From: a virus
Length of the DNA stretch: 64,000 nucleotides
Virus record (IMG/VR): IMGVR_UViG_3300039109_000042
Span: 1 to 64,000 of that record
Reading direction: 5' to 3' (one strand)
The notes under the pieces were generated by a model that searched no databases, had not been told where the DNA came from, and worked only from the letters and a program-made list of their open reading frames with translations. The position numbers were made by a program, and so were the translations under genes. Position 1 is the stretch's first letter. Each line of letters starts with the position of its first letter. Positions 4,074 through 56,860 of this stretch are shown here, in pieces.

Positions 4074-4095
4074 ACTAACTCGTTTGGAGCTTATT

Positions 4096-4165
4096 GACAG
4101 GGGCAGGAGTTGAACCTGCGGCCTCCGATGAAGTCACGGTGCTCTACCGCCTGAGCTACCCTGTC
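4096..4165 (-). tRNA. tRNA gene with irregular anticodon arm (possibly Glu, UUC)
   Basis: On the minus strand a perfect 7-bp acceptor stem (GACAGGG with CCCTGTC), D-arm GCTC-AGGCGGTA-GAGC and T-arm GCAGG-TTCAACT-CCTGC. The 21 bases between D and T stems are one or two short of normal. Placing a 7-base loop by length gives ACTTCAT, anticodon UUC followed by A37, but position 33 would be C instead of U and two stem pairs fail. CCA is not encoded. A functional tRNA-Glu, a CAU or UCA reading, or a degenerate tRNA are all possible. Confidence 0.6.
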
Positions 4166-10424: not shown

Positions 10425-10919
10425 ATGACTGTCTTACCTAAGGCACTGATCGGACCAATCAAGATGCGTCTCGGGGTCGACTGCACCGGCCTCCTGAGCG
10501 TCGCGGGCATCTACCGGATCTTTTGTGCACCCCTAGGTAGGTCATACATTGGTCAGACGACGGATGCAGCCCGCAGGTGGCTCGAGCACCAGCAGGACCT
10601 GTGGTCTGGGCAGCATATGAACTCAGCCTTGCAGACTGCGTTCGACCTCTACGGCTACCAGGCCTTCACGTTTAGCGTCTTGGAGCGTTTGCCACAGCGC
10701 TACCATGAGGCGACCTATGCCTTGGCTGAGGATCGTTGGTTACGTCTGCACCGACAACAGTCTACCGTGTTCAACGTAAGACCGGCCGGCACCGATCACT
10801 GGTTAACCAAGACGGCAGCTGGGCGGGAGGCGGGCAAGGCGTGGCTAAAAGCCGACCAGGCCGGACGTGAAGCACGTCCTCAGGGCAACTTTCACCGACG
10901 TAATAAGGATCACCTGTGA
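10425..10919 (+). CDS. GIY-YIG homing endonuclease
   Basis: 164 residues. G28-I29-Y30 and Y41-I42-G43 with Q44-T45 are the GIY-YIG signature; arginines at 50 and 51 fall where the catalytic arginine is expected. The C-terminal part is Arg and Lys-rich and ends FHRRNKDHL, likely DNA-binding. It is free-standing between the two terminase genes, a frequent place for homing endonucleases, so it is probably a selfish element rather than part of packaging. The stop overlaps the GTG of the next gene. Confidence 0.85.
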   Translation: MTVLPKALIGPIKMRLGVDCTGLLSVAGIYRIFCAPLGRSYIGQTTDAARRWLEHQQDLWSGQHMNSALQTAFDLYGYQAFTFSVLERLPQRYHEATYALAEDRWLRLHRQQSTVFNVRPAGTDHWLTKTAAGREAGKAWLKADQAGREARPQGNFHRRNKDHL

Positions 10920-24800: not shown

Positions 24801-25229
24801 ATGGCCGTAACAGCCTTAGTACCGCGCATCGTCTGGGGGACTGGCCCAACGACCTTTGACTTTACGCTGCCGATGAAGATGTGGAACCCAAAGGATGTGA
24901 CGATTGGCGGGTTCGGCAAGGCGAGTACTGGCGTACCTGAAGCCGTGCTGATCCGGCGTGAGCACCTGCTGATGACCACCCTTAGGTTCTATGAGGCGCA
25001 GCTGGGCAATGTGCAGGACTGGATTGAGTACGTCACTGACAACGCGGCCAGCTTCACGTTCAGGTTGAACAAGACCGACGCAGCAACCGACTATGTGGTC
25101 TACCTGGAAAAACCACACATGACCGATGACGTTGACATTCAGCGTGATCAAACGTACCTTGGTGCTTATACCCTTGACATTACCATCCGGACTATTGCTG
25201 GAGCACGCTTCACCACAACGATCCTCTGA
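24801..25229 (+). CDS. Putative distal tail protein
   Basis: 142 residues, [20 protein letters not shown] to GARFTTTIL. It is beta-rich with [12 protein letters not shown] and [20 protein letters not shown], and lies immediately after the tape measure, where the distal tail or baseplate-hub partner is expected. The last base of its TGA region is shared with the start of the next gene (TGATG). No confident family name. Confidence 0.65.
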
Positions 25230-28200
25230 TGTCACTGTTTAGCAGGGTCACGATCTATCTTGATGACGATATAACCGTGATGGTGCAGGTCTCAACAGAC
25301 CCTGCCCACGCAAAGCCGTATCTTTTGGCTGACAGCCTTGTCTACGGTGAGAGCAAGATTGACTTTCCAAACGGTTCAGCAGGCATAGGTCAGTTCAGCT
25401 TCAAGCTCCTGGACAAACGCACAATTACAAACGATCAGACGACAGGGTTCTTCACGGCCTTGCTTGCCGACGTAGGTGGACGCGGCAATATCATGGGTCA
25501 CCGCGTTGTTTGGGAGAGGCAGCAGATCGGCGGAGGTGGTGCCTACACCACACAGTTCGATGGCATCGCTGATGACTGCAGGCTTGACGAGACCTTGGTG
25601 CAGTATCAGATCCCTTGCCGTGATGTCAGAGAGCGTGAGCGGGTTAACCGCATCTTCACCAAGCACAACCGAGGCACGTCACTCCTGCCCAACGGCCCGG
25701 TAGCTGGCTGGGGGCGTCAGGCAGGCCTACCTGGGCGTGCAGGTTCTGCTGGTAAGCTCATCCCGCCAGTTACACCGCTGACTGGTGTCTTCTGGAGAGA
25801 CCCGAATGTCCCGACCTTAGCAGGTAGGATCAAGACCACCGCGAATCAGTTCGACCTGATGATCGGTGGTAGCAGGTACCAAGCACTACAGAACTATGGG
25901 GCCTTGACCCAGGGCAGTGGCATCACTGGTGGTGATACCTCGGTTGCCTTCAGGAACGTGGTTGTCTGGTGGAGAGCCTACCCTGGTGGTGGTGCCTGGA
26001 CTGAGCTGGTCAACATGCCTGCTGTGCCTGGCACCGCCTACGCCATGCAGAACGTCTTTCCACAGGGTGTTGGTACCTTTGACTCAGCAGAGAGCGCCAG
26101 CTTTGTTTCCAAGAGCCTGCATGACAAGGTCAACCTGTATGTGAACCTGACTGGGCCTAATATCCCGGCACATACACAACAGGTTGAGTTCATGGTGCTG
26201 GCAAACGGTCAACCTACGAATGAGGCGCCGATCTATTGGGAAGGTAACCTTGGCCAGCTGACCAAGGACATCTATGATGGTGTCTGGTCAAATTATCCGC
26301 CTGGCATACGTTATGATGCCGCGGCCATGGCAGACTTTATCGCCAAGTCCTTTCAAGGTTCTGCCCTGATCAAGGCGCCAGAGGACAACGGTCTACAATG
26401 GGTCCAGGAGAACACCTACAAGGTGCAAGGTTGGGCGCCCTCTGTGCCTCCCGAGACAGGGCTAGTGACACCGATTCAGTACAACCTGCCTAACGATACT
26501 ACGCCTTTGCTATCGCTGACAGACTCGATAGTCAAGGAGGACGCCAAGTGGGAGCTGAACAAGGACGAGCTGATCAATGAGATAAACTTCAACTATGAGG
26601 CGATCTTCGTCGTTGATAGCAAGTATCCAACCTCATTCAGCGGGCTTGACGCACTAAACAACTCCAATAAAGTAGAGCCACCAGCGCAGCGCCTTGGAAC
26701 CGTACCAATCACCTATGTCGAGGTGGCTGTAAACAGCCAAGCTCTGCTTGGTGCCAAGGTCCTGAAATATGACCCAGTCACCATTAAGCTGTTCGGGATC
26801 CTGACGCCAGATGGTCTTGATACCAGGATGTGGCCTGATATCGGGTCTAAGCTCGCTAAGGACCGCACAAAGGAGGTCTTGGACCGCTTCACGTTCGCAG
26901 GCCAGCGACTTATCGTGAGCGCCAGGCGGACTGGAGCGGGGGTGGCTGCCGCCAGGATGGGTGACTGGGCCATCTGCGGAGTCAGTTGGCTTCCTGACTA
27001 CATAAGCCAGAAGCGTGGTCTCAACCGCCTGATGCAGGTAGTCTCTGTCAATGATGATGACAGCGTCTTCCGGAAGCTTACCTTATCTGACGCTGGTCCG
27101 AATGCCACACCATCAGGCCTTCCTGTCCTGGGAGCCATCACACAGGTAGATGGTGTAGTTGACATCGCCTTCACCTCAATCCCGGCTGGAGTCTTTGCTC
27201 AGGTCGACTTTGCGATAGATACCTTGGAGCCTGCTGCAGACTCTGGTGACTGGATCAGCGCTGGTCGCACAGCCTTAGCCACTGACCATATCACGATAGG
27301 GCCCTTCCCGCCTGGCACGTCCATCTGGATCCGGGCGGTAGGCCAAGAGCCAGGAAAGCGTCGGTCAGCGTTTGCGACCTCGGTCAACATTGCTATCACG
27401 GTTGTGCCTTTGATCTTGGCGCAGCAGATCACGTTTGATGCTGATGGGCACCCACGCGTTAGCTGGCAGGCTTCCGCCTTGACCTTGGGCGTGCGTGTCA
27501 GCTATGTGGTCTACGACGCAGCGACTGATGCACCTGCCTTCACGAACACCATTGATGCTGATGCTAGCCTGCTGTCAGTACAGCTTCCGGTCATCACGAC
27601 CTATGGGCAAGCTGTGGCTGTTATGCTCACGCCGTACCCTGGGTTTGCGGCTGGTGTTGTTTCTGGCGTAGCAGGTACAGCCTCAGGCATAAGCTTGGCC
27701 AGGAATGTAGCGCTTAAGCCAGTAGACATGATCGTCGAGCCACTGACATCAGAGACGACAAGCACTGGTACCTTGACCTTGACGATCACTGATCCTCATG
27801 GCCGGCTTACCTTGGTTGAGTTCAAGACACAACCAGGTAATGGCGCGATAACCGGTTGGATAACTGATGCTGTTGTTCCTTACGCTACCTCAGTCGCCTT
27901 GGTGGAAAAGCAGGTAAGTCGGATCTGGTATCGTGTCTCAGGCACAGATGATAACGGGATAGTACGTGTGCTTGCTGAGGATGTGGTGACGTATGTAGCT
28001 GGATCTACGCCGCTTGCACCGATCATCCAGGCCTTGAGCTTCTCAGCAGCTGGTGCCTTGACCGTGTTCTTGACTGGTGATAGTGACACTGCCTCAATTG
28101 CAGCTGCGGCTGTCGTTGGATCTGACCCTACTGCGACGCAGATCAGGGCAGGTAGCTCGATCAACGCTAGGGTAGGATCGATCGTCTTCGCTGGGCCATA

Positions 28201-29167
28201 CAACGAGGGTGATGAGGTACATGTCGGTGTCTTTGCTTACAATGGCGCAAGCAAGACAGGCCTTGAGTCACTTGCTGTCTTTGGGACGATCAGGCGTGTC
28301 ACGACGGGCCCCACTGGTCCAACCGGGGTTGGCACAACCGGTCCGACGGGAGCCACTGGCGTTGGGACCACCGGCCCTACCGGTCCAACCGGGGTTGGCA
28401 CGACGGGAGCGACCGGGGTGACGGGTCTCGGAATCACATGGCGCGGGACGTGGAGCGGTGCGACGGCCTATGCAGTAAACGACGCCGTCCACGATGGAGG
28501 CTCGGCCTACATCTGCATTCTTGCCAACACGGGCCAGGTGACTTCCAACGCAACCTATTGGAGTCTCACCGCGGAGAAAGGAACTACCGGCCCCACTGGA
28601 GTCGGCACAACCGGAGTGACGGGACCGACTGGCGTTGGAACCACGGGAGCAACAGGCCCCACGGGCGTCGGAACTACTGGAGCTACAGGACCGACAGGAG
28701 CCAAGGGCGCGAGGTGGCTCGGAGCGTGGTCGAGCAGTACGGCGTATGTCGTTGATGACTTGGTGTCATCCGGGGGCGTTACCTACATCTGCATCCTTGG
28801 ACACACGAACCAAGTGCCGCCGAATGCGACCTATTGGGGTGTCGTCGCAGACAAGGGTGCTGACGGGGGGCTCGGGCCTACCGGAGTTACGGGACCGACT
28901 GGCGTAGGAGCCACAGGCCCGACCGGCGTAGTAGGTACTACAGGAGTGACCGGCGTGACGGGAGCGACTGGCGTTGCTACAGGCGGGTTAACCAATCAAG
29001 GAGCATGGTCCTCCACATTCGGCACCTACGCCGTTGGTGCGACTGTTACCTATTTGAGCTGCACTTTCGTTTGTTACAAATCACATATCTCCAGTTCCAG
29101 CACCACCCCGACCTGGGATGCGACCGATGGACATTGGGGGAAGCTCGGAAATTGTACGGCGTTCTAA
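25229..29167 (+). CDS. Tail tip protein with collagen-like repeats and carbohydrate-binding-like domains
   Basis: 1312 residues. The N-terminal 550 residues are the tail-tip body ([20 protein letters not shown] at the start). Residues about 600-1020 are a series of fibronectin-type III-like beta domains. From about 1025 the chain has Gly-x-Thr repeats in three blocks, such as [12 protein letters not shown], separated by aromatic modules beginning near residues 1069, 1161 and 1253 (for example [20 protein letters not shown]). These resemble CBM5/12 chitin-binding-type modules. The C-terminus would be the receptor-binding end. Thr in these repeats are typical O-glycosylation sites. Codon use changes in the C-terminal part. 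Confidence 0.8.
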
Positions 29168-29376: not shown

Positions 29377-29598
29377 ATGAAGGGGAAATGGGAATACGCG
29401 ATTGTTGTGGCGACTGTTGTTCTGATCGCTGCTGCTCTGATGAATTGGAGAATCGCGTTGGTCGCGGCGGGCGCCTGCGTCATCATCGCAGCCGGAGTGC
29501 TGGCGTTTGGCAATCCATCGCGCGGTAGTGGCAGCGTGAGCGGCGGCGGCGGATCGAGCGGATCAACGGGCACTGGCACGGGCGGCAAGCAACTCTGA
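29377..29598 (+). CDS. Hypothetical membrane protein with Gly/Ser tail
   Basis: 73 residues. Two hydrophobic segments (YAIVVATVVLIAAALM, residues 6-21, and IALVAAGACVIIAAGVLAFG, residues 26-45) are followed by a glycine-serine tail (GSVSGGGGSSGSTGTGTGG). The two-segment hairpin fits a small holin-like or accessory membrane protein. Its TGA shares bases with the ATG of the glycosyltransferase (TGATG), so they are made together. Confidence 0.7.
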   Translation: MKGKWEYAIVVATVVLIAAALMNWRIALVAAGACVIIAAGVLAFGNPSRGSGSVSGGGGSSGSTGTGTGGKQL

Positions 29599-30842
29599 TG
29601 CGCCTGCACTTATTGGCAATTCCTCACACCGTAACGTGCGGCTGTTTTAGCCACTGCGCATACACCGCGAAGGTTCTCAAATTCCCGGCGATGATGCTGC
29701 CGCTGGGATATGACATCATCCACTACGGCGTTGGAGGTGCCGACTTCGGCTTTCACTGGAAGAGAACATGCAGTGATGGCAACCCCGGCTCATTAGAGTT
29801 GGTGGACATAATGACCGGAGCCGAGCAGAACGCGCTGCGCGGCCACGACGGATCGGACCCGACGAGGTACTACGGCGACGATGCGAATGTCGGCACGCCG
29901 CTATATAAGGAGTTCAACCGGAGACTCAGGCTCGCCCTGATCGAGCGAGTAACGCAAGCCGATTTAGTCTTGCTCCCGTTCGGCCACGCGCACGGCGATG
30001 CCCTTTCAGACCTTCCGTTCAAAATGGTCGAGAGCGGGATCGGCTACGCGACGTTGTACGCTCCGGCCCAATTCAAGATTTTCGAGAGCTATGCGTGGAT
30101 GCACTTCCACCAGGGGCGCGAGGATCGGTACGGTAGAAACTACGAGTGGGCGATCCCTAACTATTTCAATGTGGACGATTGGGATCTGCAACTCGCCCCC
30201 GACATGAACACCGTCGTATTCCTCGGTCGGATCTGTGACGTGAAAGGATTGCCGACCGTAGTGGAGATCGCCAAGCGCAGGCCCGACTTGCGGTTCATCA
30301 TCTGCGGGCAGGGCGATCCCGCTCCGTATCTCACGCAGCCGAACATCGAGTATCGCGCGCCGATCACGGGCAAAGCGCGGAGCGCCTATTTGGGCAATGC
30401 GCGCGCGGTCTTAATGCCCACCGTGTTCACCGAGCCCTTCGCTGGTGTGGCCGTCGAAGCTCAGATGTGCGGGACTCCAGTTATCAGCACGTCTTACGGC
30501 GCATTCACGGAGACGATTGAGGACGAGGTGACGGGATTCCGTGCTCACACGCTCGGAGATTTTCTAGCAGCGCTGGACCGCGCGCCGGATCTTGATCGAG
30601 CCTACATCGCCGATCGCGCTCGCAGACTCTACGGGTATGAGCGAGTCGGCAAGATGTACGACCGAGCTTTTCAGCAGATCCAGGACCTGCAGGGGGAGGG
30701 GTGGTACTCACCAAGAAGCGTCTTTCAACGGGGAACAAGCCATGACATGGACAGCATCACACCAGGTAACAGTGACGGGTCACAACAAGGAATCAGCCGG
30801 ACGCGTCGTGCACTACCTCCGGCCAATATTGGCGGGGAATGA
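29598..30842 (+). CDS. Family 4-like glycosyltransferase
   Basis: 414 residues. The C-terminal half carries the Rossmann-type donor site of GT-B enzymes: VVFLGRICDVKGLPT near 210, LRFIICGQGDPAPY near 232, and EPFAGVAVEAQMCGTPVIST near 280-299, in which the E-x7-E-type pattern of GT4 is visible. No signal peptide. It lies next to the collagen-like tail protein and would be well placed to add sugars to its Thr residues. The last 35 or so residues (from about GTSHDMDSITPG) are out of character and overlap the next gene by 101 bases. Confidence 0.8.
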   Translation: MRLHLLAIPHTVTCGCFSHCAYTAKVLKFPAMMLPLGYDIIHYGVGGADFGFHWKRTCSDGNPGSLELVDIMTGAEQNALRGHDGSDPTRYYGDDANVGTPLYKEFNRRLRLALIERVTQADLVLLPFGHAHGDALSDLPFKMVESGIGYATLYAPAQFKIFESYAWMHFHQGREDRYGRNYEWAIPNYFNVDDWDLQLAPDMNTVVFLGRICDVKGLPTVVEIAKRRPDLRFIICGQGDPAPYLTQPNIEYRAPITGKARSAYLGNARAVLMPTVFTEPFAGVAVEAQMCGTPVISTSYGAFTETIEDEVTGFRAHTLGDFLAALDRAPDLDRAYIADRARRLYGYERVGKMYDRAFQQIQDLQGEGWYSPRSVFQRGTSHDMDSITPGNSDGSQQGISRTRRALPPANIGGE

Positions 30843-31849: not shown

Positions 31850-32142
31850 TGTATGACTGGCTGAAGAAGTTTCCTGGGCATCCTGCCATGATCGTCTTGA
31901 CGATCGTCATGACAGCCTGCACAGGGATCATCGTGCTAACACACATGGCCTTAGGTAATACCATGCCTACTGGCTATGACGGTTGGTACGTGTTCCTTGG
32001 TGGTCTTGCTGGTGTCAACGTCGCCGGTCTTGCTGTCAATCGCACAACCGACTACCAGTACCAGATGATCAAGAACGCGGCACAACCGTCGACCGTATCG
32101 ACCGGTGGTCCAACCACCGTGGAGGTAAAACCGAGTGTATGA
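31849..32142 (+). CDS. Putative holin
   Basis: 97 residues with two hydrophobic segments: AMIVLTIVMTACTGIIVLTH (13-32) and WYVFLGGLAGVNVAGLAV (46-63). The short charged N-terminus and C-terminal polar tail fit class II holins. It lies directly before the amidase, the expected endolysin. Its end overlaps the amidase start by 8 bases. Confidence 0.6.
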   Translation: MYDWLKKFPGHPAMIVLTIVMTACTGIIVLTHMALGNTMPTGYDGWYVFLGGLAGVNVAGLAVNRTTDYQYQMIKNAAQPSTVSTGGPTTVEVKPSV

Positions 32143-47890: not shown

Positions 47891-48124
47891 ATGAAGGAGT
47901 TTCGGATCAAGATCAATATCAAGCTCCAGGCAGAGGACATGGGCGATGCTTTTGGTGAGCTTGCTACCCTCGCCACCAATCGAGCGAATATGATTGGTGC
48001 TGATGAGGACTTCACGCCGGACCCTGAGCCGGTGTTTACTGGTGAGATTGACATTCATCCCACCGAGCAAGAAAACCCGCTAACTGGCGAGGTTTTCACC
48101 AACCAGCGAGGTATCCTATCGTGA
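47891..48124 (+). CDS. Hypothetical protein (KFRIK family)
   Basis: 77 residues starting MKEFRIKINIKLQAEDMGDA. The first strand and helix (FGELATLATNRANMIG) resemble the product at 62773 (MNKYRVKISYTLNVLGNDID and AWSAIAKHF), and the start of the 3021 gene is similar. The second half is acidic and Pro-rich. GTG of the next gene overlaps the stop. Function unknown. Confidence 0.65.
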   Translation: MKEFRIKINIKLQAEDMGDAFGELATLATNRANMIGADEDFTPDPEPVFTGEIDIHPTEQENPLTGEVFTNQRGILS

Positions 48125-48906
48125 CCGCAGTCAACGAGGCGATCCCAGAAGAGGACCGTCAACCAACAAGGACAGGCCGTGCCGAAAAGACGCGTACGTT
48201 CGACCAGACGTTCCTTGACACCGACACGGACGTCATCCACCGAGACTATATCGCCCACGCTCTTCGCTGGGGTTTTTCCAAGCGAAACTTCATCGTTCAC
48301 GAAGTTACGGGCGTGCTGGATGTCGGTTGTGGACCAACACGGCCGATGCTTCTTGTTCTCTTCGGAGGCATCGGTGCGTTTCCGCTGGCGAAACGGTACG
48401 TTGGTGTGGACCTCAACAAGATCAAGCCGACGCAGCACAAAAGGTCGACGCTCTACCAGGAGTTCAACTTCATCGAGCGGGTCGAGGAGCTCCGGAAAAA
48501 GGAAGGCGCGTTCGAGCTGATCACCAACTTTGAGGTCATCGAGCACATGCCTATTGCCAAAGGGCAGGAGCTGCTTGTGGCCATGAAGCGGATGCTGGCC
48601 CCTGGTGGTCGGATCCTGCTCAGCACTCCAGTGTACGATGGCAAGGCCAGGGCAGCTAACCATATCCACGAACATACAATCTCGGAACTTACTGGTCTTA
48701 TAGATCAGGCAGGTCTCAAGGTCGTAAATCGTTGGGGAACCTTTGCGAACTATAATGACATCAAGAAGGTAGCGGCTCCTGAGCATCTGCAAACTCTCAA
48801 TGACATCCGGTCATGGTTTGGTAACGAGGTAGCAGCTTGTTTCTTGGCTCCTTTATATCCTGACCAGTCCAGGAATAACTTCTGGGAAATCGTTGCCAAG
48901 AAGTAG
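48121..48906 (+). CDS. Class I SAM-dependent methyltransferase
   Basis: 261 residues from GTG at 48121. Motif I D67-V-G-C-G71 (LDVGCGPTRPM), an acidic end of strand 2 (YVGVDLNKIKP) and the motif NFEVIEHMPIAKGQE define the Rossmann-type methyltransferase core. The C-terminus has no DNA-methyltransferase signature (no DPPY or PC), so a small molecule, protein or RNA target is more likely than DNA. Overlaps the next gene. Confidence 0.8.
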   Translation: MTAVNEAIPEEDRQPTRTGRAEKTRTFDQTFLDTDTDVIHRDYIAHALRWGFSKRNFIVHEVTGVLDVGCGPTRPMLLVLFGGIGAFPLAKRYVGVDLNKIKPTQHKRSTLYQEFNFIERVEELRKKEGAFELITNFEVIEHMPIAKGQELLVAMKRMLAPGGRILLSTPVYDGKARAANHIHEHTISELTGLIDQAGLKVVNRWGTFANYNDIKKVAAPEHLQTLNDIRSWFGNEVAACFLAPLYPDQSRNNFWEIVAKK

Positions 48907-49258
48907 TGGTTGGAACCGAGAGGATGTAGCCTGGCTTTCAGGTATCTGGGAAGGTGAAGGTTGCTTTACCATCTCTAATCATTCTGGTGGTAAACGACCA
49001 TCACAGCAGCAACTTCGCCTTGTGTTGACTACGACAGATGAGGAGGTTGCTCGTCGGTCTTATGCTATCTTAGGCCTTGGTAGGATTTATGCTTATCCTG
49101 CCGGGTATACTCGAGGTGTAGGTAAGGCTGTTTGGTTGCATGGTATCAGTGCAGCTGCCGAGGTTTATGCGACCTGCGCCTTACTGTTTCCGTTCATGAG
49201 TTATAGGCGACAAGCAAGGATCATTGAGCTAGTGCAGTGCTTCAAGGACAAGCAGTAG
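48893..49258 (+). CDS. LAGLIDADG-like endonuclease, small
   Basis: 121 residues from a TTG at 48893, overlapping the end of the methyltransferase by 14 bases. WLSGIWEGEGCFTI is the LAGLIDADG-type motif (glycine and acidic residue before a cysteine-phenylalanine turn), and LRLVLTTTDEEVARRSYAIL follows as the usual second part. One motif means it would work as a dimer. It is more AT-rich than its neighbours, a sign of transfer. Confidence 0.7.
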   Translation: MPRSSGWNREDVAWLSGIWEGEGCFTISNHSGGKRPSQQQLRLVLTTTDEEVARRSYAILGLGRIYAYPAGYTRGVGKAVWLHGISAAAEVYATCALLFPFMSYRRQARIIELVQCFKDKQ

Positions 49259-50188: not shown

Positions 50189-50668
50189 ATGAGCATCACG
50201 AACTACGGTGAGGTCCACCTATTCCACCGGAAGATGGGCCTCACTCACCCCAAGATCCCACAGCTCTTGGATGAGGAAGCCAGGCAACGGCGCGTTAAGT
50301 TCATGCTAGAGGAGCTCAACGAGTTCATCAAGGCGTGTGAAGACAATGACATCGCCTTGGCTGCTGATGCTCTGATTGACCTGTGCTACGTGGTCATGGG
50401 CACAGGTGTCATGATGGGCCTGCCTTGGCAGGCTCTCTGGGATGCCGTGCAATATGCCAATATCCGGAAAGAGCGTGTGCCTGACGATGGTAGTGGACAC
50501 CATTTTGGCGTGGTCAAGCCGCCAGGCTGGAAGCCTCCAAATATCAAGGCCGTGCTGGATCGATACACGGACCTGGCCTTGGCTGTGCCTCAGGCGGACA
50601 TCATCCCAGAAGCCGAGGACACTGAGAGCATCACCCACAAGATGATAAAGGATGCTGGCGGCCCATGA
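50189..50668 (+). CDS. MazG-like nucleotide pyrophosphohydrolase
   Basis: 159 residues from ATG at 50189. FMLEELNEFIKACEDND and AADALIDLCYVVMGTGV form the paired-helix E-x2-E and D-x3-D metal site of the all-alpha NTP pyrophosphohydrolases (MazG or PRA-PH branch). It would remove pyrophosphate from nucleoside triphosphates, possibly sparing modified ones. The gene begins the nucleotide cluster and overlaps the next start by 4 bases. Confidence 0.75.
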   Translation: MSITNYGEVHLFHRKMGLTHPKIPQLLDEEARQRRVKFMLEELNEFIKACEDNDIALAADALIDLCYVVMGTGVMMGLPWQALWDAVQYANIRKERVPDDGSGHHFGVVKPPGWKPPNIKAVLDRYTDLALAVPQADIIPEAEDTESITHKMIKDAGGP

Positions 50669-51555
50669 AACTGATCATCCTGGAAGGTCCTGATGGAGCC
50701 GGCAAGACGACCTTAGCCCGTCGGTCTGCTCACATGGAGTACATCCATTTTGGACCACCACCTAAAGGTAAGCTCGGCGCTTGGCATCAGTACCACGCCT
50801 TGCTCGAGGACTTGTGGGATAACCCAAGGATCGGTGGAGTGGTGGTTGATCGCTTCATCCATGGTGAGAAGATCTATGGCAAGCTGCTACGCGGCGGTAC
50901 TGACCTTACCTGGGCCCATATCCGGATGCTGGAGCGTGTCCTGATGGGCATGGACGCGCAGCTGGTCATCTGCCTGCCGCCCTGGGGCACGGTGCTTCGC
51001 AACTGGACCATGTCCTGGACCATGTCCAAGGATGAGCTGCTGACGTCATCACGCGACCTGTATGATACCTACGATTTCTACCTAAAGCTGCTCGGTGACA
51101 GCTGCCGCATGCTGCCTAGGTCCATGTTTGACTACACCAGCATGACGTTTCCTGAAGGATCTGGTAGCCAGTTGACCAACACAGGACCTGGCATCGGGAT
51201 GTTTGCTCCTGGCAACACGCTGCTTGTTGGTGATGAGGTCAACAAGAAGGCCGGCAAGGATGGTTGGCCCTTCGTCGCGCCCGGCGGCTCAAGCCTCTGG
51301 CTAGCAACCTTGCTGGAGAACGCCAAGATCCCAGAGCATGGGCTGTACTGGATCAACGCTAAGACAGATGGTCAGGAGACTGGTGGTAGCTTCCTCGATG
51401 CGTTGGCTCCAGGCAAGGTGATCGCGATGGGTTTGAAGGCATCACAGTGGTGTAACCGACATGTCCAAGGTAGATTTTACACCATCTCCCACCCGCAGTA
51501 CCACAAACGTTTTCGGCACAGTGAACCGTACCCTCTAATCGACCTGCTCAGATGA
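50665..51555 (+). CDS. dNMP kinase fused to a uracil-DNA-glycosylase-like domain
   Basis: 296 residues. P-loop G8-P-D-G-A-G-K14-T (ILEGPDGAGKTTLARR) and VVVDRFIHGEKIYGKLL fit dTMP-kinase-like enzymes in residues 1-165. Residues about 178-296 (NTLLVGDEVNKKAG, PFVAPGGSSLWLATLL, YWINAK, GKVIAMGLKASQ, ISHPQYHKRF) follow the order of UDG family motifs, with the HP near the C-terminus. Catalytic residues are not certain. It may phosphorylate a modified dNMP and recognise bases, but the fusion itself is what is seen. Confidence 0.7.
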   Translation: MKLIILEGPDGAGKTTLARRSAHMEYIHFGPPPKGKLGAWHQYHALLEDLWDNPRIGGVVVDRFIHGEKIYGKLLRGGTDLTWAHIRMLERVLMGMDAQLVICLPPWGTVLRNWTMSWTMSKDELLTSSRDLYDTYDFYLKLLGDSCRMLPRSMFDYTSMTFPEGSGSQLTNTGPGIGMFAPGNTLLVGDEVNKKAGKDGWPFVAPGGSSLWLATLLENAKIPEHGLYWINAKTDGQETGGSFLDALAPGKVIAMGLKASQWCNRHVQGRFYTISHPQYHKRFRHSEPYPLIDLLR

Positions 51556-51674
51556 TCAAACGAATCTTAACAAAGCTTAATGAGCTGTACTATGACAGGC
51601 GGTTCTTTTACGGCTTTATCTCTGGTGAGATCTTCATGGGCATCCTCATGCTGATCATGGACCTGCTCAGATGA
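51552..51674 (+). CDS. Small membrane protein, 40 residues
   Basis: MIKRILTKLNELYYDRR, then FFYGFISGEIFMGILM and a short end MDLLR. One hydrophobic segment of about 15 residues could span or graze the membrane. Both ends overlap neighbours by ATGA, fitting exactly between the kinase and ThyA-type genes, which is the main evidence that it is translated. Role unknown. Confidence 0.6.
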   Translation: MIKRILTKLNELYYDRRFFYGFISGEIFMGILMLIMDLLR

Positions 51675-52636
51675 CCTTTGTCTACGGTAACATGCCTGAG
51701 GCATATCGGGCGATCATCAAGCACATCATCGACTTTGGACGCAATGTCAGCCCCAGGGGTATGATCACGAAGGAGCTGATCGGGTACAGCTTTAGCCTGG
51801 AAGATCCTGCCTATAACGTCGTCACGCAAGCTACCAGAAAGGTGAGCCTTCCCTTCATGGCTGCTGAGGGGATGTGGATCCTGTCGGGGTCGAATGACGC
51901 CAGGCTCATCACGCCGTACAACTCGAACATCAAGGCGTTCGCTGATGACGGCTTGTTCTTCCGTGGTGCCTACGGGCCTAAGGTCATGGACCAGATGCCA
52001 TACATCATCCAGACCTTGCGTGACGATCCCGAGTCGCGCCAAGCACTGTTGACCATCTGGCGTGAACGTCCAGGTCCCAGCAAGGACATCCCTTGCACGA
52101 TCACGATGCAGTTCTTTGTGCGCGATCAACGGCTGCACATGGTGGTCTACATGCGGTCAAATGATGCCTGGCTGGGTCTACCGTACGACGTCTACAACTT
52201 CACCTTGATCCAACGTTATGTCGCCTCGCTTCTTGTGCTGGACGTTGGGCGGTATCACCACCACGTTGGTAGCCTGCACCTGTACCAGAAGAACTGGGCA
52301 AAGGCAGAGCTGCTTCTGCGTGAGCCACTTAGCTTTATCCCTATCGTGCAGTCAGATCCTCTGACAGCCCCCATGCCTCCCGAGGTGCTCACCGTGTTCA
52401 CTGGGATGTCTCTTCTTGGGATGAACACAGGGGTAACTGCCAAGGATGTTAACAGCTGGATAGATCTGTCAGAGTCGAAGGCCTATCCAGAGTGGATTGA
52501 CATGCTGTACATGTGCGCGTACCGATTCCATAAGGACATTAGCCTGCTGCCTAAGCAGCTGCGGAACCTCGTGATGTACTGGGACAATTATATTGACAAG
52601 CAGGCGGAGGAAGATGTCGAAAAGCTTGGAGGTTGA
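51671..52636 (+). CDS. ThyA-family pyrimidine C5-transferase, likely dCMP-specific
   Basis: 321 residues of the thymidylate synthase fold. Catalytic C142 (DIPCTITMQF), R162-S163-N-D165 (phosphate and folate contacts), and H203-x-Y205 (SLHLYQKN) are present. In thymidylate synthases the residue 31 after the Cys is Asn; here it is D173 (LGLPYDVYN), as in T4 dCMP hydroxymethylase (C148 and D179). It may therefore methylate or hydroxymethylate dCMP using folate, feeding modified cytosine. Neighbours are a kinase and MazG-like enzyme. Confidence 0.75.
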   Translation: MTFVYGNMPEAYRAIIKHIIDFGRNVSPRGMITKELIGYSFSLEDPAYNVVTQATRKVSLPFMAAEGMWILSGSNDARLITPYNSNIKAFADDGLFFRGAYGPKVMDQMPYIIQTLRDDPESRQALLTIWRERPGPSKDIPCTITMQFFVRDQRLHMVVYMRSNDAWLGLPYDVYNFTLIQRYVASLLVLDVGRYHHHVGSLHLYQKNWAKAELLLREPLSFIPIVQSDPLTAPMPPEVLTVFTGMSLLGMNTGVTAKDVNSWIDLSESKAYPEWIDMLYMCAYRFHKDISLLPKQLRNLVMYWDNYIDKQAEEDVEKLGG

Positions 52637-52853: not shown

Positions 52854-53028
52854 CGTTGAGGGCGTGGTCATTGATCCAGACCAAGCTAGTGAGATCTTGC
52901 TGCGTGTCCTTAGCCAATACCTTGATGCCGTCCATGATAGTCAACCAGTTATCCTTGTCTCGAGTCCTGACCTAGCATGTCTTCTGGCAATGGCATCTTT
53001 GTGGGCTCAAGCAAAGCCTCCGACCTAA
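52819..53028 (+). CDS. Hypothetical protein overlapping the polymerase start
   Basis: 69 residues from ATG at 52819. MSADDLKRSDINVEGVVIDP is followed by a helix (QASEILLRVLSQYLDAVHDS). It overlaps the previous gene by 35 bases and the polymerase by 52. The codon pattern looks natural, so it is probably a real gene, but the double overlap lowers confidence. Confidence 0.55.
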   Translation: MSADDLKRSDINVEGVVIDPDQASEILLRVLSQYLDAVHDSQPVILVSSPDLACLLAMASLWAQAKPPT

Positions 53029-54833
53029 CCTTCTGGCTTGACCTGAGCCGAGAGGAGCGGGTGGGTGTTGACACGGAATGCACCGGCCTAGGTCATACTG
53101 ATGTACCTGTCGGGGTTTCCATCTGGACTCAGTCAGGTATCGGACGCTACTATCGCTGGGGTCATGAGGAAGGTGGCAACAACTGCACGCTTGCCGACTT
53201 CATCCGCTGGGCTCGTGTTGAGCTGTCCCACCCAAACGTAGAGTACTGGTTCTTGAACGCCTTGTTCGACCTTCGGATGCTGTGGAACATCGGGGTCAAC
53301 GTCAAGGGCATCATTAAAGCGGCCGACACAGCCTGCAGCCTGCTGAACGAGTACGAGAACGCCTATACCCTGGAATACCTCAGCAACAAGTACACCCCAG
53401 AGGTAGCCAAGGACAGCCGAGAGCTGGACGTGTACTGCGCTGCCAAGTTCGGTGGTGTACCTACCAGACGGGCTCAGGCCAAGAACTACTGGCGAGCCTC
53501 AGGTGAGCAGGTGGCAGCCTATGCGATAGGCGACGCCAGGGCCACCTTAGCCATCGGGATCCTAAAGGAACCTGAGCTGTACCTGCCAGACAAGGATGAC
53601 TACGACCTGAAGGATGTCTGGCAGACCGAGATCACCTTGATCCCTGTGCTGCACAGGATGTACCGAGCTGGGGTCAGGATAGATCCTGATCGTTGCAGGT
53701 TCGTCCAGTCAGAGCTGCATGCCCGGCATGATGTCTACAAGCACGAGTGGGACAAGATCAGTGGTGGCTTTGGTTTTGGCGAGCGCACCAAGCTGATCGA
53801 GCTGTTCAACAGCCTCAACATCAAGTTCCCGCGTCACCCGCCGACTGAGCGGATGAAGATGAAAGGCATCATGATCGGCAATCCTGCGATCGACAAGTAC
53901 TTCCTGGAGGAGCTTGACCATCCCATCGGGAAGATCATGCGTGGCATGCGTCAGACAAGCCACTATGCTGACACCTTCATCCAGAGCTACCTGCTGGATA
54001 ACCTCCGGCCTGGCGACCTAATCTACCCCGAGTTCCACCCTACCAGATCAGCTAAGGGTGGGACCATCACAGGTAGGTTCAGCTCGGCAGGCACGCTGAA
54101 CGCCCAGAACATACCAGCCAGAGACGAGGAGTGGGCACCACTTATCCGTGGGATGTTTGTCCCGATCAGTCCTGACCACCAGTGGCTCAAGCTCGATTAC
54201 AGCCAGATCGAGTACCGGTTCTTCGCGCACTACGCTGGTGGCAACATGCGTGATGCCTACAACAATGACCCAGACACTGACTTCCATGAGTTCGTCATGG
54301 AGGTTACTGGGATGCCTCGTAAGCCCAGCAAGAACCTGAACTTTGCCAAGCTGTATGGTGCTGGGGTCAAGAAGGTAGCCCTGATGTTGGGCTGTTCATT
54401 GGAGGAGGCTCAGGAGTTCATAGATCTGTATGACAGAAAAATCCCCGAGGCTAAGAAGCTGATCACGCTTGCCATGAACCGTGCCTCGGTGCGCGGGTTC
54501 ATCAGGACCTGGGGCGGACGTACCTTGCGCTTCCAGCGCCGTGGTCAAGGTTACGATAAGACCTTCACCGCCCTGAACAAGCTGCTGCAAGGGTCCAGCG
54601 CTGACCTAACCAAGCAGGCGATGATCGCCGTGGATCAGCATATCGACTGGGAGGATTCGGTCATGCACCTGACCGTCCATGATGAGCTGGACTTCTCCGT
54701 GCCTAAGGGTTCAGCAGGGGTCAAGAAAGCCAAGGAGCTGAAGCAGGTGATGGAGGCGTTTGAGCTATCAGTCCCGATCAAGGCGGCTGCTGAGATGGGA
54801 CCTGACTGGGGTCACACCAAGGAGGTTAAGTGA
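52977..54833 (+). CDS. Family A DNA polymerase with 3'-5' exonuclease
   Basis: 618 residues. Exonuclease: D32 and E34 (VGVDTECTGL), then NALFDLRM and YAIGDARA. Polymerase: motif A D407 (LKLDYSQIEYRF), motif B R448, K452, F456, Y460 (RKPSKNLNFAKLYG) and motif C H568-D569-E570 (LTVHDELDF). No 5'-3' exonuclease domain, as is usual in phage enzymes. It would be the replicative polymerase. Confidence 0.95.
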   Translation: MSSGNGIFVGSSKASDLTFWLDLSREERVGVDTECTGLGHTDVPVGVSIWTQSGIGRYYRWGHEEGGNNCTLADFIRWARVELSHPNVEYWFLNALFDLRMLWNIGVNVKGIIKAADTACSLLNEYENAYTLEYLSNKYTPEVAKDSRELDVYCAAKFGGVPTRRAQAKNYWRASGEQVAAYAIGDARATLAIGILKEPELYLPDKDDYDLKDVWQTEITLIPVLHRMYRAGVRIDPDRCRFVQSELHARHDVYKHEWDKISGGFGFGERTKLIELFNSLNIKFPRHPPTERMKMKGIMIGNPAIDKYFLEELDHPIGKIMRGMRQTSHYADTFIQSYLLDNLRPGDLIYPEFHPTRSAKGGTITGRFSSAGTLNAQNIPARDEEWAPLIRGMFVPISPDHQWLKLDYSQIEYRFFAHYAGGNMRDAYNNDPDTDFHEFVMEVTGMPRKPSKNLNFAKLYGAGVKKVALMLGCSLEEAQEFIDLYDRKIPEAKKLITLAMNRASVRGFIRTWGGRTLRFQRRGQGYDKTFTALNKLLQGSSADLTKQAMIAVDQHIDWEDSVMHLTVHDELDFSVPKGSAGVKKAKELKQVMEAFELSVPIKAAAEMGPDWGHTKEVK

Positions 54834-56203: not shown

Positions 56204-56860
56204 ATGACAAGACCGAGTAGACAGGAGATGTTCATGCAGGTAGCCCATGTCGTCAAGCAACGAGCTACCTGCCTTAGGGCTCAGGTAGGTTGTGTCATCA
56301 CCAACTTATCTGGGACCTCGATCGTCAGCATGGGGTACAACGGCAACGCTATGGGCCTACCTGACACCTGTGACTCCTCAGAGCCAGGTGCTTGCGGCTG
56401 CCTGCATGCTGAGGAGAACGCCCTGCTGAAGGCGCCATACGGCAGGGCTCTGGTCCTGTACACAACGACCAGCCCTTGCTTGATGTGTGCCAAGCGAATC
56501 CTGAACAGCTCAATCACCGACCTCTACTTCGATGAGATCTACCGCGACATGTCAGGCCTGCAGCTGCTACAGAAGCAAGGCATCAGGACCACGCGGCTTA
56601 GCGGCATGAGCTGGTGGCAAGATCAGATCTACACAGCCAAGGCAGAAACCACCAGTGTAAAAGCCCAGCAGCGCCTTATTGGTGTCGCCCTGATGTCATT
56701 CATCAGGATGTTTCTACCGAAGAGCTTTCCTGATCCACAGGTCAACGAGCGATTCAGGTACGAGCTTGATGAACGTACCACACAGGCGGTGCAAGATAGC
56801 CACGTCAGTGTCACACCCTCTAGTACACTGCATAAGACCTTGGTCATTGAGGTTCGGTGA
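56204..56860 (+). CDS. dCMP deaminase
   Basis: 218 residues. Zinc site H68-A-E70 (CLHAEENALL) and P91-C92-x2-C95 (SPCLMCAKR), with E70 as the proton shuttle. It deaminates dCMP to dUMP. Residues up to about 135 match the deaminase core; the last 80 (ending TLVIEVR) are an extra C-terminal region of unknown use. In phages with modified C it helps balance pyrimidine pools. Own leader ATAGAGGAGAG. An N-terminal CLRAQVGC may bind a second zinc. Confidence 0.9.
   Translation: MTRPSRQEMFMQVAHVVKQRATCLRAQVGCVITNLSGTSIVSMGYNGNAMGLPDTCDSSEPGACGCLHAEENALLKAPYGRALVLYTTTSPCLMCAKRILNSSITDLYFDEIYRDMSGLQLLQKQGIRTTRLSGMSWWQDQIYTAKAETTSVKAQQRLIGVALMSFIRMFLPKSFPDPQVNERFRYELDERTTQAVQDSHVSVTPSSTLHKTLVIEVR

Follow-up and report, generated by a model that had tools for sequence, protein, structure and literature searches.

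The DNA of phage Xp12 has 5mC. In phage T4, the Asp located three residues before the catalytic Cys of gp42 (position −3) activates a water molecule, so that a hydroxymethyl rather than a methyl group is produced, whereas thymidylate synthase (TS) has Leu there; Ser94 of the T4 enzyme is also counted in the hydroxymethylation signature (PMC6400193). The CMP hydroxymethylase MilA owes its preference for ribose to Lys133 and Ala176, and Arg and Ser at these positions restore preference for dCMP (PMC5175136). Modified-cytosine contigs were reported to carry PF00303, PF01503, PF00383 and PF14437 as a co-occurring set, and positions 147 and 177 (E. coli numbering, used below) were the top two associated with such contigs (PMC8670742). 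Phage AXL1 is closely related to Xp12, and the two have similar digestion patterns (PMC9206674). The DNA of phage AXL3 resists 35 of the 37 restriction enzymes that have sites in its genome, and the two that cut it both recognize A/T-only sites; its authors read the ThyA-fold gene as encoding thymidylate synthase and did not assign the modification (PMC7504290).

We analysed bases 1–64000 (the window, 64,000 bases) of the 65,496-base IMG/VR virus record IMGVR_UViG_3300039109_000042. We propose, with a probability of roughly 0.85, that the ORF at 51671–52636 encodes a dCMP 5-hydroxymethylase (HMase) and that its neighbours form a supply line for 5hm-modified cytosine in virion DNA. From homology, active-site residues, conservation of the cassette and the restriction resistance published for AXL3, which has the same cassette, we infer this reading, including the activity of each enzyme and the final base.

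A ThyA-fold gene in a nucleotide cassette

The genes of the putative cassette, in their order along the window, are as follows.

48121–48906, plus strand: class I SAM methyltransferase at the head of the cassette (PF13489, 1.7e-13)
50189–50668, plus strand: MazG/PRA-PH-type NTP pyrophosphohydrolase (NTP-PPase; PF01503, 1.3e-15)
50665–51555, plus strand: fusion of a kinase and a UDG-fold domain (family scan, profile matches, AlphaFold)
51552–51674, plus strand: 40-aa ORF (MIKRILTKLNELYYDRRFFYGFISGEIFMGILMLIMDLLR) coupling kinase and HMase through ATGA overlaps on both sides (read from the sequence)
51671–52636, plus strand: putative AXL3-type pyrimidine (dCMP) hydroxymethylase of the ThyA fold, HMase, 321 aa (PF00303, MilA match, AlphaFold model)
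52977–54833, plus strand: family A DNA polymerase (PF00476, 2.6e-52)
56204–56860, plus strand: dCMP deaminase (PF00383, 2.3e-17; PF14437, 2.8e-9)

The four Pfam families of the modified-cytosine set are all present in this genome, and the MazG-like hydrolase and dCMP deaminase that an earlier, sequence-only reading had placed beside the enzyme are indeed there. ATGA start/stop overlaps at 50665, 51552 and 51671 chain the NTP-PPase, the kinase, the 40-aa ORF and HMase; the NTP-PPase ORF is open from 50087, with ATG 50189 as the likely start, and HMase runs from ATG 51671 to a TGA ending at 52636. A near-identical stretch, GACCTGCTCAGATGA, lies at the 3′ ends of the kinase ORF (51540–51555) and of the 40-aa ORF (51659–51674), where it supplies each ATGA overlap, and suggests a small duplication. 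A small ORF behind the methyltransferase (48893–49258; WLSGIWEGEGCF) resembles by eye a homing endonuclease of the LAGLIDADG type, and a GIY-YIG homing endonuclease (10425–10919; phrog_7168, phrog_5123) lies before the terminase. The window also holds a single tRNA-Lys (CTT) on the minus strand (4095–4165) and a papain-family cysteine protease, unusual in a phage (32641–33504; PF00112, 2.6e-16), which adjoins the endolysin gene at 32135.

HMase matches PF00303 with an E-value of 6.9e-27 (94.7 bits, cutoff 24.3), and this profile together with the catalytic Cys, C142, places it in the ThyA superfamily. Its closest solved relative by sequence is MilA (2.6e-38), the best thymidylate synthase following at 5e-23. 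The AlphaFold model, with pLDDT mostly above 85 over residues 1–220, gave the same order when searched against the PDB: MilA was the top match (1.4e-22) and thymidylate synthases came next (8e-17). When phages were searched at the DNA level, no near relative turned up.

An ordinary thymidylate synthase, making dTMP from dUMP supplied by the dCMP deaminase, would agree with the PF00303 match and with the PHROG label of the ORF, ‘thymidylate synthase’. HMase is, moreover, the sole ThyA homologue in the 65,496-base record, in which a search for ThyX found none. Evidence against this reading comes from Asp at position 177, Thr at 147, Asp at −3 and the absence of the TS tail (see below), and by phages AXL3 and PW916, which have an HMase homologue alongside a separate ThyX; we give it very little credence.

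Active-site residues and the predicted reaction

Residues were assigned by alignment with E. coli ThyA, T4 gp42, SPO1 gp29 and MilA. The main positions are the following.

51965–51967, plus strand: G99, at the position of T4 Ser94; the sole T4 signature residue missed
52085–52087, plus strand: D139, counterpart of T4 Asp145 (Leu in E. coli TS)
52094–52096, plus strand: C142, catalytic nucleophile, aligned with E. coli Cys146 and T4 Cys148
52097–52099, plus strand: T143, counterpart of E. coli His147 and T4 Thr149 (Thr also in MilA)
52187–52189, plus strand: D173, predicted cytosine-selecting Asp, aligned with E. coli Asn177, T4 Asp179 and MilA Asp186

The sequence-only reading had noted that C142 and D173 are 31 residues apart, as are Cys146 and Asn177 of E. 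coli ThyA and Cys148 and Asp179 of T4 gp42. Numbering and spacing are correct, and alignment puts both residues in exactly those columns; since homology spans about 220 residues, a chance spacing is no concern. C142 is invariant across the 188 relatives surveyed. Two marks of pyrimidine hydroxymethylases, an Asp or Glu at −3 from the catalytic Cys (here D139) and the lack of the TS tail, are both found: the C-terminal tail of TS (...APVAI in E. coli) has no equivalent in the alignment, and the C-terminal extension of HMase is unrelated to it. D173 provides the Asp at position 177 expected of a dCMP hydroxymethylase. Besides Cys148, Asp179, Thr149 and Asp145, HMase matches Glu60, Tyr96 and Ser169 of T4 gp42, which likewise lacks the TS tail, and E66, R162, D165, H203 and Y205 of HMase also agree with the hydroxymethylase reading, the functions ascribed to the residues following PMC6400193, PMC5175136 and PMC8670742.

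MilA, as the best PDB match, raises the possibility of a ribonucleotide CMP hydroxymethylase rather than a DNA-precursor enzyme. MilA (PDB 5jnh, 5b6d) resembles HMase in Asp186, in the Thr, in the Asp at −3 and in a large C-terminal extension. However, its Ala176 and Lys133, the source of ribose preference, correspond to S163 and R123 in HMase, the deoxyribose state, as expected of an enzyme acting on dCMP. Given also the phage DNA-replication context of the gene, we regard a MilA-like activity as extremely improbable.

Against the hydroxymethylase reading, HMase and T4 gp42 show a low identity when compared directly (31% across 119 aa), and the motif G99-A100-Y101 lacks the Ser or Thr found two residues before the catalytic Tyr in enzymes of the T4 type, with Gly taking the place of Ser94. 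This position is occupied by Ala in SPO1 gp29, which is known to hydroxymethylate dUMP, so Ser94 is not universal among hydroxymethylases. In the IMG/VR loci fetched with the neighbouring kinase (described below) the same column splits into 44 Ser and 34 Gly, which indicates that both forms serve the same cassette. SPO1 gp29 further shares with HMase the Asp at −3 and an Arg-Gln phosphate pair, and differs in having Asn both at 177, where it goes with uracil, and at 147. HMase also departs from T4 gp42 in having Gln in place of Arg124.

The Asp at 177 would also suit a dCMP methylase that makes 5-methyl-dCMP as in phage Xp12, with 5mC in the DNA. According to Liu and Santi (1992), as cited in PMC8670742, the change of Asn to Asp alone converts TS to a dCMP methylase, and phages of the Xp12 type also have Asp177 and a dCMP deaminase. 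We compared HMase with the enzyme of AXL1, which stands in for Xp12 (MT664984), so that the contrast between methylation and hydroxymethylation rests on one Xp12-type sequence. AXL1 likewise has dCMP deaminase and NTP-PPase neighbours, but its enzyme, 27% identical to HMase, has Asn at −3 and Pro at 147, where HMase has Asp and Thr. It also lies next to a DHFR gene, which fits an enzyme producing dihydrofolate (DHF). No DHFR was found in the present genome by a search that was positive in 9 of 14 control genomes, as expected if tetrahydrofolate (THF), and not DHF, is the product. Thus neither mark of the Xp12 type, a residue other than Asp at −3 or a DHFR companion, is seen here, and HMase also lacks the TS tail that closes the active site for hydride transfer. 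The Asp and Thr beside the catalytic Cys and the absence of DHFR favour hydroxymethylation over methylation, and we consider the methylase reading unlikely.

The claim that D173 is a dCMP-selecting Asp is therefore backed by D173 itself, T143, D139, S163 and R123, the missing TS tail, the missing DHFR and the association of this Asp with the cassette (see below), the exception being the change of Ser94 to Gly. By homology to T4 gp42, Cys142 would attack C6 of a dCMP held by Asp173, and the methylene of N5,N10-methylene-tetrahydrofolate would be joined to C5; Asp139 and Tyr101 would then direct water, not hydride, to the exocyclic methylene, giving 5-hydroxymethyl-dCMP and THF. In the proposed pathway, the NTP-PPase would deplete dCTP and yield dCMP, the kinase domain would convert 5hm-dCMP to the diphosphate, and host NDP kinase would produce the triphosphate. 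The phage family A DNA polymerase, which would need to accept a modified dNTP, would insert it, and the dCMP deaminase would divert surplus dCMP to dUMP/dTMP. In that case the virion DNA would contain 5hmC, or something derived from it, and would be protected against restriction.

The kinase fusion and the final base

The dNMP kinase expected from the sequence-only reading turned out to be only part of a larger protein: a P-loop kinase domain is present, yet it is fused to a UDG-fold domain. The N-terminal part (about aa 1–165) is thymidylate/dNMP-kinase-like, and its assignment, weak from the single sequence, is clear for the family, 36 of 42 relatives matching Thymidylate_kin; its profile match to YorR has an E-value of 6.7e-14. 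The UDG-fold part (about aa 178–296) matches PF03167 in 7 of the 42 relatives (best 1.7e-4), and profile matches include the UDG TM0511 (2e-4) and type-4 UDGs. The AlphaFold model of the whole fusion (pLDDT 91.8) resembles YorR/TMPK and type-4 UDG, and Thermus UDG is among its fold matches (7e-5). Among the 42 relatives, P202-F203, N231 and G256 hardly vary, and 30 retain H276-P277; by analogy with the UDG family these would be uracil-pocket residues.

AXL3 encodes a full-length homologue of the fusion, and so do PW916 and ctUtU524, where the ORF lacks an annotation; at least 78 IMG/VR loci keep the fusion beside a predicted dCMP hydroxymethylase. Other phages have the kinase without the UDG domain (ct3Et533, 187 aa), which suggests that kinase activity is probably the core function and the UDG domain an addition. 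A UDG-fold domain attached to the kinase was an unexpected part of the cassette, and within the collection of papers searched, none describes a thymidylate kinase–UDG fusion in phages. Tentatively, and with considerable doubt, we suggest that a widespread 5hmC system of a non-T4 kind has the fusion as one of its dedicated components. The protein might either phosphorylate 5hm-dCMP while the UDG-fold domain reads bases and polices uracil or unmodified nucleotides, or join a kinase to a glycosylase-fold transferase that acts on 5hmC in DNA and builds a further cytosine derivative, the conserved methyltransferase perhaps taking part.

We also looked for enzymes that could alter 5hmC further. The genome has no match to the carbamoyltransferase family PF02543, for which controls were positive, and none to the T4-Gluco-transf and AGT families in a search run without a positive control. 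One glycosyltransferase gene was considered.

29598–30842, plus strand: GT4-type glycosyltransferase, next to the gene for a collagen-like tail protein (PF13692, 3.8e-15)

This gene directly follows a large gene (25229–29167) with collagen-like GTTGPTG repeats. Its phage relatives are cyanophage glycosyltransferases, the closest of which overlaps a tail-fibre annotation, and it is absent from the examined flanks of the cassette relatives. We therefore set it aside as a 5hmC glycosyltransferase; it is probably not a DNA glucosyltransferase and may instead glycosylate the tail fibre. The base in virion DNA may be plain 5hmC or something made from it.

An AXL3-type lineage

Pairwise identity to HMase is 41–48% for AXL3, PW916 and HTVC119P, 37% for MilA and 27% for E. 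coli TS. In a tree built by a quick method, HMase groups with AXL3, HTVC119P, ct3Et533 and the IMG/VR cassettes, with T4 gp42, SPO1 gp29, MilA and AXL1 falling outside this group; T4 gp42 sits on a very long branch and many of the inner ones are weak, so the tree gives a coarse picture only. Judged by sequence comparison, HMase belongs to an AXL3-type branch, nearer to MilA than to T4 gp42, and its nearest relatives in isolated phages are AXL3 and its kin, not T4.

Gp28 of Stenotrophomonas phage AXL3 and its counterpart in Pseudoxanthomonas phage PW916 (41–42% identity) have all the diagnostic residues and the same cassette order, including the kinase–UDG fusion; AXL3, PW916 and ct3Et533 share the order methyltransferase, NTP-PPase, kinase, HMase, dCMP deaminase. 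AXL3 differs in that its genes are annotated as a pathway of ordinary thymidylate synthase and in also carrying ThyX; the window has the polymerase between HMase and the deaminase, and its HMase has a longer C-terminal extension. Cytosine modification is a testable candidate explanation for the restriction resistance of AXL3. The suggestion that the present phage may carry modified cytosine is favoured by the sequence tests and by its closest homologues in isolated phages, which lie in the same cassette, AXL3 DNA being cut only by A/T-only enzymes.

Scanning IMG/VR with the single HMase protein gave no matches, and an alignment was used as the query instead. As the search pattern of this HMase-anchored set itself contained the Asp at 177, the set was excluded as evidence for that residue. 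We relied on loci for which the kinase alignment was the only query, as this presupposes nothing about a ThyA-fold neighbour, and took residue counts from alignment columns. A ThyA-fold gene lies in the available stretch of 78 of these 80 loci. Asp is found at 177 in 77 of the 78 genes (the remaining one is cut by the contig end), and Asp at −3 and Thr at 147 are each present in 77. Much of the cassette set is seen in most IMG/VR relatives, and homologues of the methyltransferase occur in AXL3, PW916, ct3Et533 and many IMG/VR loci. The MetaGPA modified-cytosine contigs (PMC8670742) resemble this arrangement in having Asp177 ThyA homologues together with PF01503 and PF00383/PF14437; they differ in that no carbamoyltransferase is found here, and the main text of that paper does not mention a kinase or a glycosylase.

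Asp177 hydroxymethylase genes were also noticed in other settings. In nine loci, mostly from Comamonadaceae/Sphaerotilaceae genomes, the gene is chromosomal and lacks the phage cassette, with a conserved downstream gene of 306 aa and, by eye, an apparent toxin/XRE-metalloprotease antitoxin pair; these loci could be a defence or modification island. In four Micromonosporaceae loci it adjoins a carbamoyltransferase-like gene, with an NAD-dependent epimerase-like gene upstream, and the locus looks like a nucleoside natural-product cluster.

The likeness to T4-type modification drawn by the sequence-only reading held in part. T4 has comparable companions (a dCTPase-like hydrolase, a dNMP kinase and a dCMP deaminase), and the precursor pathways resemble each other in function; HMase, however, is of the AXL3-type branch, and the T4-type glucosylation half was not found in the search without a positive control. 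Very probably, the cassette functions like the T4 precursor pathway but is a differently built gene set.

If the hydroxymethylase reading is true, this phage builds its genome with altered cytosines and thereby resists bacterial restriction enzymes. It would belong to a lineage, separate from T4, of phages that probably modify cytosine; this lineage comprises many IMG/VR contigs and the cultured AXL3, PW916 and Pelagibacter phages, and most of its enzymes bear the annotation of an ordinary thymidylate synthase. The comparison suggests a residue rule, in which Asp/Thr as opposed to Asn/Pro beside the catalytic Cys would separate 5hmC from 5mC phages, and brings to light the kinase–glycosylase-fold fusion as a possible component of base modification.
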